Assembly: GCA_024278345.1 (NCBI GenBank)
Contig: JAJRTK010000257.1
Coordinates: 1 to 5,342 of the forward strand
From: a bacterium
GTDB lineage: Bacteria; CSSED10-310; JAJRTK01
DNA: 5,342 nucleotides
Direction: 5' to 3'
Under the pieces are notes generated by a model that made no database searches, was not told where the DNA came from, and saw only the letters and a list, made by a program, of their open reading frames with translations. A program made the translations under genes and the position numbers. Positions 3,414 to 5,342 of the stretch are shown here, in pieces. The stretch's first letter is position 1. Every line of letters begins with the position of its first letter.

Positions 3414-5147
3414 ATGAATGCCACCATCGAAGGAGCTTTGTTGGCGGACCGGTATGAAGTCGGTCCGAAGTTGGCGTGCGGGATCTCCAGCTCCATCTTC
3501 TTCGGCTGGGACCGGACCCATGGAGTCCCCTGCGCCCTCAAAGTGTTGGCGGATTGGGAAGATGCCACACAAATCGAGAAAATGCTCTTTCGGCGCCGCC
3601 TCGAGTCGCGGCGGGATTTCTCTGTTCCCCGGTGCTGCGCTTTGCGGAGTTTCCTCGTGGAGGGAAATGTTGCCGTTGTCGTATCAGACCTCGTCATCGG
3701 CTGGTCTTTGGCGGAATTGCTGGCTTCGGCCAAAGAGCTTCCCATTGCGGTTGCCCTTTCGATATCCGGGCAGTTGGCTGCTCTTCTTGCTGAGCTCCAC
3801 CGGAATGGGTGTCTTCTCGGATCGCCCAAGCCGCGGAAAATCTTGTTGGATCTCGAAGGCCGACTCCTCCTTGGGGGGGGCGGTTGTTCGTGGACGGAGA
3901 TTCGTGGAGGCACGCTGGATGTGGTGAGCGGCGCGGCACAGGCCTGGAAAGGCCTGGAACTCGCTGTGGGAGACCCAACCTCGCTTCGCGCTGATCTCTC
4001 GGGATGGGGGCTTTTGAGCTACCGCCTGTTGGCTGGCTCGGGATTCGATGGGGGGACAGAGACTGCCTTGGTTTCCGGGAGGCTCCAGACTGGAGCCGAG
4101 ATCCGTGGAATTCGGGATGGCTCGCCGCCAGAGGTGGGGCAATTACTGGTTCGGTGTTTTTCCAGGGGGCCAGACCACGGTTTTCGTGATGCCGCGGAGT
4201 TGGCCGCGGAATGGAGGCGTTTGCTTCCTGGGGACTCCGATCCTCATACCGTGCGGGAGGCTTGCCGCCCTCTTGGGCTTCCCGCCGCTCTTGAGCTGGC
4301 CAAGATGGCCGCTTCATTGGGAGGGCTCGGGTTGACACCCACAAACCTGAGTGATGAAAAGACCCTTCTTCTTACCGGTGGCGACCATTCCGAGAGGGGC
4401 AGTGCGCCGACGGAAGTTTCTTCAGGGCGCGTGGCTTCAACGGATGATGGCAAGGCGGGACCGGAGGCCATTGCTCGTTGGGAACGGATTGGTGAGCCTC
4501 CTTCGGCAGACCCGTCTGGTTCGGAGGTTCTTTTGCCAGAAGCCCCGCCTTCGGGACGCGTCCCCGTGAGCCAGATCCTGGATTTGTTGGACGAAATCGG
4601 CTCCGATTTACAGTCGATGGCTGTCAACAGAGCTCAGAAGGGGGGTCTCGAAGCCGTGGCCGCGGAGTCTTCAGTCGCCCAGAGGCACGGGAAGATCATT
4701 GATCGTTTTCTGGCGTCGGCCACGACGGAGGCGAGAATCGAACAGCCATCCGGTGGCGGTGGCACGAAGTCCCCTGGCGATTCGACGGAACCGGAACCGG
4801 ATACCATGGATTTTGAGGGAAGCTCTTATTATGACCTTCTGGATGACGTCGATCGTTTGGAGAAGGCGGTTCTTCGGGAATCCGTGAGCCCGGAGCCGAC
4901 AGCGGAAACGGTCAAGGCTTCCGAGCGGTCCGAAGCGCCTGCCACGGGAAGGGGCCCGGAACCGTCACTCCCGCCTAAAATCACCAAAGCATGGGAATCC
5001 GCGGACAGATCCTTCACCTGGAACCGGACCTTTGAAGACGAGTCCATCAGCTTGAGCTCTGCCGTCATGGACAAGATCTTCGACGAAGTTGACGAGATTA
5101 CCCGTATCCGCCGCGAAACCAGGGAACCCGCCGGCGAAGATTCTTGA
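3414..5147 (+). CDS. Serine/threonine protein kinase-fold protein, predicted pseudokinase with a long acidic repeat-bearing tail
   Basis: The product has 577 residues with no signal peptide or membrane helix, so it is probably cytoplasmic. Residues 13-272 follow the Hanks-type kinase order: DRYEVGPKL (12-20), a degenerate glycine loop (ACGISSSIFFG, 21-31), the ATP-binding Lys43 in CALKVL, a helix before the catalytic loop (LLAELHRNG, 124-132), the catalytic-loop region (CLLGSPKPRKILLD, 133-146), an activation-segment end (WKGLELA, 178-184), RADLSGWGLLSYRLLAG (192-208) matching the 'sDiwSLGvvLYelltG' helix, and FRDAAELAAEWRRLL (257-271) as the last subdomain. The HRD motif reads LGS (135-137), the catalytic Asn is Lys142, and DFG reads GGG (155-157). 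Without these residues phosphotransfer is very unlikely, so a scaffold or sensing role is inferred. Residues 273-577 are rich in Ser, Pro, Glu and Gly and probably disordered. They carry a motif three times: LLDEIG (391), LLDDVD (475) and IFDEVD (555). Partners are not evident from the neighbours. Confidence 0.88.
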   Translation: MNATIEGALLADRYEVGPKLACGISSSIFFGWDRTHGVPCALKVLADWEDATQIEKMLFRRRLESRRDFSVPRCCALRSFLVEGNVAVVVSDLVIGWSLAELLASAKELPIAVALSISGQLAALLAELHRNGCLLGSPKPRKILLDLEGRLLLGGGGCSWTEIRGGTLDVVSGAAQAWKGLELAVGDPTSLRADLSGWGLLSYRLLAGSGFDGGTETALVSGRLQTGAEIRGIRDGSPPEVGQLLVRCFSRGPDHGFRDAAELAAEWRRLLPGDSDPHTVREACRPLGLPAALELAKMAASLGGLGLTPTNLSDEKTLLLTGGDHSERGSAPTEVSSGRVASTDDGKAGPEAIARWERIGEPPSADPSGSEVLLPEAPPSGRVPVSQILDLLDEIGSDLQSMAVNRAQKGGLEAVAAESSVAQRHGKIIDRFLASATTEARIEQPSGGGGTKSPGDSTEPEPDTMDFEGSSYYDLLDDVDRLEKAVLRESVSPEPTAETVKASERSEAPATGRGPEPSLPPKITKAWESADRSFTWNRTFEDESISLSSAVMDKIFDEVDEITRIRRETREPAGEDS

Positions 5148-5230
5148 ATCCTGATCCCGAATCGACACAAAGTTCTCTCATGCACTCCCGTAGGGTATCC
5201 ACCGGCCTCGGTCATGGTACCGGCCACCCG

Positions 5231-5249
5231 AAAAAAGCGCGCAGCGCAC
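5231..5249 (-). terminator. Possible intrinsic terminator for transcription entering from the right
   Basis: Read on the minus strand, GTGCGCTGCGCGC (5249-5237) can fold into a five-pair stem with one G-T wobble and a three-base loop, followed directly by TTTTTT (5236-5231). The stem is short, and no gene on that strand is visible in the window. If real, it would end a leftward transcript whose gene lies beyond the right edge, and it would guard the end of the pseudokinase gene from antisense reading. No terminator for the pseudokinase itself was found between 5148 and 5230. Confidence 0.35.
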
Positions 5250-5255
5250 AAAGAT

Positions 5256-5342
5256 GTGGGTCCAGGGAGCTGGCTCCCTGGCGTGGGTCTGGGAGCGGCG
5301 CTCCCAGCGGAGGTCCGGAGGCAGAGCCTCCGCCGGGTTCCA
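5256..5342. repeat. Tandem stem-loop array of 26-27 base units, truncated by the window edge
   Basis: Three units follow one another without gaps: 5256-5282, 5283-5308 and 5309-5334. Each starts with a short linker (GTGGGTC, GTGGGTC, GGAGGTC) and contains a perfect stem-loop. Stem 1 pairs CCAGGGAGC (5262-5270) with GCTCCCTGG (5273-5281). Stem 2 pairs CTGGGAGCG (5289-5297) with CGCTCCCAG (5299-5307). Stem 3 pairs CGGAGGC (5316-5322) with GCCTCCG (5326-5332). The following GGGTTCCA (5335-5342) looks like the start of a fourth unit. The stems differ in sequence but stay fully paired, which points to selection on structure. Related short palindromic repeats are known between genes in many bacteria, and I recall similar GGAGGC-AGA-GCCTCC elements, but I cannot name the family. 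Confidence 0.8.

Follow-up and report, generated by a model that had tools for sequence, protein, structure and literature searches.

The stretch of bacterial DNA analysed here (the window, 5,342 nucleotides) closes with a tandem run of hairpins, and the locus raises two questions: what this run is part of, and why stems that differ in sequence stay paired. Three perfect stem-loops, of 9, 9 and 7 pairs with loops of 2, 1 and 3 bases, lie where the sequence-only reading had placed them, at a spacing of 27 bases (Table 1); sterically, the second is equivalent to 8 pairs with a loop of 3. Three non-overlapping stems of at least 7 pairs were obtained in 0 of 2000 dinucleotide shuffles of a 140-bp stretch, which puts the hairpins beyond chance and confirms them as real. 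For 5256-5342, folding with DNA parameters gave z = -2.7, and the fold of the whole element described below was very stable (z = -8.1). The fourth unit suspected at the edge was also present, its 5' arm beginning at 5340 and the hairpin being whole in complete copies. Contig C181 ends at 5342 and thereby truncates the element in the window; on the left, the feature reaches past the hairpins, to 5204, further than had been noted.

Table 1. Features at the right end of the window, in order of position.
Feature	Position	Strand	Remark
presumed left 8-bp target-site duplication TATCCACC	5196..5203	.	from 10 of 18 complete copies
element A (probable MITE type), leftmost 139 of 201 bases, truncated at contig end	5204..5342	+	complete copies, e.g., G000:C413:37-237 (L009)
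left 24-bp terminal inverted repeat GGCCTCGGTCATGGTACCGGCCAC	5204..5227	+	genome matches; inverted copy at the other end
small GC hairpin, then T6 on the minus strand; terminator-like, array leader	5231..5249	-	
hairpin 1, CCAGGGAGC-TG-GCTCCCTGG	5262..5281	+	9 pairs
hairpin 2, CTGGGAGC-GGC-GCTCCCAG	5289..5307	+	
hairpin 3, CGGAGGC-AGA-GCCTCCG	5316..5332	+	
beginning of hairpin 4 (5' arm); complete copies read CCAGGGCT-GGA-AGCCCTGG	5340..5342	+	

We found that the array is the interior of a dispersed mobile element of 201 bases (family A), GC-rich and non-autonomous. The last 143 bases of the window recur many times in the same genome, whose assembly comprises 6.06 Mb in 550 contigs and is 87.9% complete; the full-length places listed were 98-100% identical, and most of them sit at contig ends. 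Complete copies measure 201 bp and start with a perfect 24-bp terminal inverted repeat (TIR) that returns, inverted, at the end. With up to 3 mismatches, this TIR was matched 115 times in the forward and 118 times in the reverse orientation, and the control pattern, read backwards, gave 0 matches in both; the 233 ends correspond to at least about 117 copies. The core consists of four GC-rich hairpins with GGT-containing linkers, and the element has no room for a transposase gene. Among 18 complete copies with both flanks, 10 were bordered by target duplications of 8-9 bp. Of the 8 without a duplication, 7 are no more than about 225 bases away from a contig end, where mis-joins are a possible, unproven explanation. 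The partner of the presumed duplication in the window would lie beyond the contig end, and it was not found in the loci fetched. Elsewhere, an ISL3-type transposase gene is split by an A copy at C5:335-535, its profile match covering 53-161 before the copy and 161-235 after it, and thus resuming at exactly the same position. One further A copy, 174 bp long, is shorter by precisely one 27-bp unit, which is missing between repeated GACCCA linkers. With 233 TIR ends, the units are far from occurring once only in the genome, and the high copy number, TIRs and duplications agree with the earlier suggestion of a mobile repeat. Immediately to the left of the element, window positions 5193-5202 read GGGTATCCAC, the start of the family B TIR (see below); to judge from this stretch, the window copy may lie inside a B end.

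We read the element as a MITE-type transposon, with a probability of about 0.9. The TIRs and target duplications point to a DDE-type transposase, supplied in trans, that would bind the TIRs and move the element, and this movement is probably recent, since family A copies are 97-100% identical. The enzyme may have been lost, unassembled or missed. Multi-copy elements are often missing from such assemblies, and seven transposase-family searches in this one (88% complete, 550 contigs) revealed no autonomous element with the A TIR. The candidates considered as partners were all rejected: PF01609 gave a single fragment, at a contig end; PF01610 a remnant and one gene, the latter split by an A copy; PF12762 two fragments whose end does not resemble the A TIR; PF01797 only the RAYT-like gene described below; NF033572 weak fragments; and PF00872 and PF13610 nothing. 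After the PF01610 gene comes an ISL3-like end, GGCTCTTCGCCATC, inverted. No TIR variant followed by A or T was found.

The sequence-only reading had also offered a REP-like repeat spread by a Y1-type transposase; the mobility and the high copy number stood, and the Y1 route did not. The genome contains one RAYT-like gene (L155:1012-1737, G000:C390), scoring 67 bits with NF047646 (cut-off, 80) and 30 bits with Y1_Tnp, and a GGT-containing tag precedes each hairpin (GGGTC, GGGTC, AGGTC and GGGTT, respectively). However, no GTAG or CGTC tag was seen by eye directly before the hairpins, and what moves is the whole 201-bp element rather than one hairpin. Target duplications are not a product of HUH transposition, so the 24-bp TIRs and the 8-9-bp duplications leave spread by a Y1 enzyme unsupported. 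The association with a RAYT gene, which had been proposed as a check, failed as well: in the 2.9 kb fetched around the single gene, itself below the family cut-off, the best array match had E = 0.049, and a partial B-like element lies upstream, yet no complete array was found there. Collectively, these results make spread of REP-like repeats by the genome's own Y1 (RAYT) transposase highly improbable. The RAYT-like gene has TTTGATAGGTGCCCC upstream and GGGAACCTATCAAAT downstream, and L092, L104 and L107 hold comparable CCTATCAAAT stretches.

A search with an array profile detected a second dispersed set, family B, with a homologous array; it is diverse and older. Several of its members, of 169-336 bp, are bounded by GGGTATCCACGTAAGGCGGGACA and an inverted copy, and 8-bp duplications were present in at least four. 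A covariance model built on the first three hairpins of this family (R1) matched at least 150 arrays genome-wide, every candidate that was scored, down to 60 bits, and family A copies in the sample scored roughly 50 bits, below this lower end; further arrays that were checked belonged to family B, with the other TIR and 8-bp duplications. Together, the two families, which differ in age, contribute at least about 260 arrays at dispersed sites of the genome. The array was absent from all seven other genomes of the same phylum in the R1 search, the whole element had no match among forty other genomes or in plasmids, and the window and six loci gave 0 matches in Rfam at the gathering score. In the species genome collection, which may not have covered the genome analysed here, the exact TIR 20-mer occurs in at least two other contigs, without the rest of the element where these were read. 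In diverged A-type elements the hairpins are the same and the TIRs resemble GGCCTTGGTCATCGTTCCGGCCA, locus L210 combines an A-like end with a B-type array behind it, and some units hold nested extra hairpins.

Other repeats were observed in the same loci and in an 870-kb sample of stretches of the genome (L095-L154). A hairpin module, ATGCCGAGCGTAAGCGAG...GCGGCCCAAGGGGCCGC, and its variants lie inside hairpins of A and B arrays (L141:12169-12306, L034, L048, L103 and L105:17067), and in several old A copies (L134:1438, L147:2553 and L141:12169) the middle of the right TIR is replaced by a stretch like GTCCGAGCGACAGCGAGAGCTGCCGAAGGCACCACCG. A third type, found at L147:1205-1336 (132 bp), L110:19290 and L127:5299, has TIRs like those of A and a different pair of hairpins, CAGTCG..CGACTG and CAGCCG..CGGCTG. 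Copies of CGCCGAGCAAAGCGAGGCGAAAACCCC run head-to-tail at L105:17330-17480, adjoining a B array, and two other intergenic hairpins recur in the sample, CACCGGCAAGATGCCGGTG, with 12 exact matches when both orientations are counted, and GCATGGAGGCCTTCCGGCCTCCATGC.

Comparison of the copies bore on why the stems stay paired. In 74 distinct family B arrays, standard pairs made up 96.2% of the cells, and changes on both sides affected 32 cells, belonging to 6 pairs, in an alignment fitted to the structure tested and with cells that are not independent events; the covariation score was reached by 0 of 500 shuffles and was destroyed by sliding the partner. For nine A-type arrays, with a structure drawn from the tested sequences themselves, 98.5% was paired, 7 cells were changed on both sides and the covariation score beat all shuffles; the pairs changed on both sides numbered only 3, a count reached by 238 of 500 shuffles. 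In hairpin 2 of the A-type arrays, two adjacent pairs changed together, from CTGGGAGC/GCTCCCAG to CCAGGAGC/GCTCCTGG, and hairpin 4 alternates between CT-GGA-AG and CC-GGA-GG. The young A copies (n = 32) show no paired change yet, and the differences among the units of the window are fixed family features. The claim that stems change on both arms together is therefore correct for diverged copies of the two families, whereas the unit-to-unit differences on which it had been built are fixed in young copies.

Pairing in the array would be maintained by selection for the fold, by hairpin-templated mutation, or by both, and we give selection on folding an even chance of being the main cause. In the young copies, about 6 substitution events fell on 48 stem sites and about 17 on 33 loop and linker sites taken together (p = 3e-4, events counted by hand), and the scarcity of single changes in stems speaks for selection on folding. 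The stems might instead be paired without selection, replication template switching copying arm onto arm and the array being neutral MITE cargo, which we hold to be somewhat less probable; alone, it would not lower single unpaired changes unless it also repaired them. The mechanism is documented, with multi-base paired changes within the stems of hairpins in RNA genes (PMC8794818), and the joint change of two adjacent pairs in hairpin 2 is consistent with it. The copy at L232:2106-2210, where hairpin 2 is half-converted, with the new left arm CCAGGAGC and the old right arm GCTCCCAG, favours template switching or recombination, as it could be a recombinant of two array types. Single-side stem changes in family B, at 10 G-T and 6 A-C pair positions by hand count, had no clear bias, in line with template switching; G-U versus A-C intermediates do not discriminate between RNA and DNA, and selection would not necessarily act at the RNA level. 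If the folded form is selected, it would most simply be a hairpin bundle in read-through transcripts, working in either direction. The array may be an old structural module common to transposable families of this lineage. That it is a functional module, outliving and moving between TIR families (A, B and hybrids) and kept folded by selection, is a tentative and rather unlikely reading; it could, for instance, bind proteins or RNases when transcribed, or serve as single-stranded DNA hairpins in transposition or replication. At least about 260 arrays in one genome offer a natural test of folding selection against template-switch mutation, the distinction on which covariation evidence for RNA structure rests, and they warn against taking covariation in repeats as proof of a functional RNA.

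REP/BIME elements have been proposed to act as 3' mRNA stabilisers or attenuators, and the array could be kept for such an effect on upstream transcripts, as had been suggested for the gene preceding it in the window. The very stable fold of the whole element, the minus-strand terminator-like hairpin with T6 at its left end, the position of the window copy 56 bp behind a kinase-like gene and the inward direction of family B flanking genes in 28 of 44 cases, a value not compared with the control, agree with this role. However, young A copies lie upstream of genes by preference: 45 of 62 neighbouring genes pointed away (p = 0.005) against a control of 54%, which is the share of intergenic flank length, with genes called by a simple home-made finder, trained on the 870-kb sample, that recovers the window's five genes. 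Given this tendency towards upstream positions, we consider a 3' stabiliser improbable. The share of inward-pointing genes was the same on both sides (left, 11/40; right, 6/22), and the window copy, downstream of the kinase-like gene, is a minority case. The orientation of the element relative to genes is uninformative because the palindrome folds on either strand. A terminator-like pattern scan of the L011 copy found 2, with 0.1 expected, and the leader hairpin in other copies has varying, mostly paired stems. The kinase-like protein (window 3414-5147) gave a weak Pkinase match, of 18.8 bits for a cut-off of 31.7.

Among known systems, bacterial MITEs such as Correia elements, ERIC, RUP and Nezha are likewise short, without a transposase gene, bounded by TIRs and target duplications, strongly folding and present in many copies in intergenic DNA (PMC3049150). 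The element resembles them in its perfect 24-bp TIR, its length of 201 bp, its 233 TIR ends, and its 8-9-bp duplications, seen in 10 of 18 complete copies and in none of the other 8. We treated it as a variant of this kind because of its GC content of 69%, the genome sample having 58%; AT-richness is listed as characteristic of MITEs (PMC3049150), and we did not take it as defining. It also differs in its four separate hairpins at a spacing of 24-27 bases, in core hairpins common to a second TIR family, and in that no partner IS was found. Nearest in architecture is the pneumococcal BOX element (boxA-(boxB)n-boxC), a dispersed composite repeat in which the inner module varies in number and folds itself (PMC3049150), paralleled here by the A copy without one unit; the 24-bp TIRs, 8-bp duplications and units of differing stem sequence set our element apart from BOX by architecture alone. 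REP/BIME sequences are palindromic too, extragenic and sometimes clustered, and carry a conserved sequence beside the stem (PMC3733652), but they are 20-40-bp palindromes with a GTAG or CGTC tag and a cognate RAYT, in place of which we found the GGT-containing tags and movement as a TIR element with target duplications. The element is not a REP: its tags differ, and neither its mobile unit nor its duplications suit a Y1 enzyme. Hairpins maintained by template switching share the multi-base paired changes in stems and were described for RNA genes (PMC8794818), whereas here they lie inside mobile repeats. The element is a mobile repeat of a familiar type, and what is unusual is its cargo of hairpins, which remain paired as their stems change in sequence and which are common to a second family.
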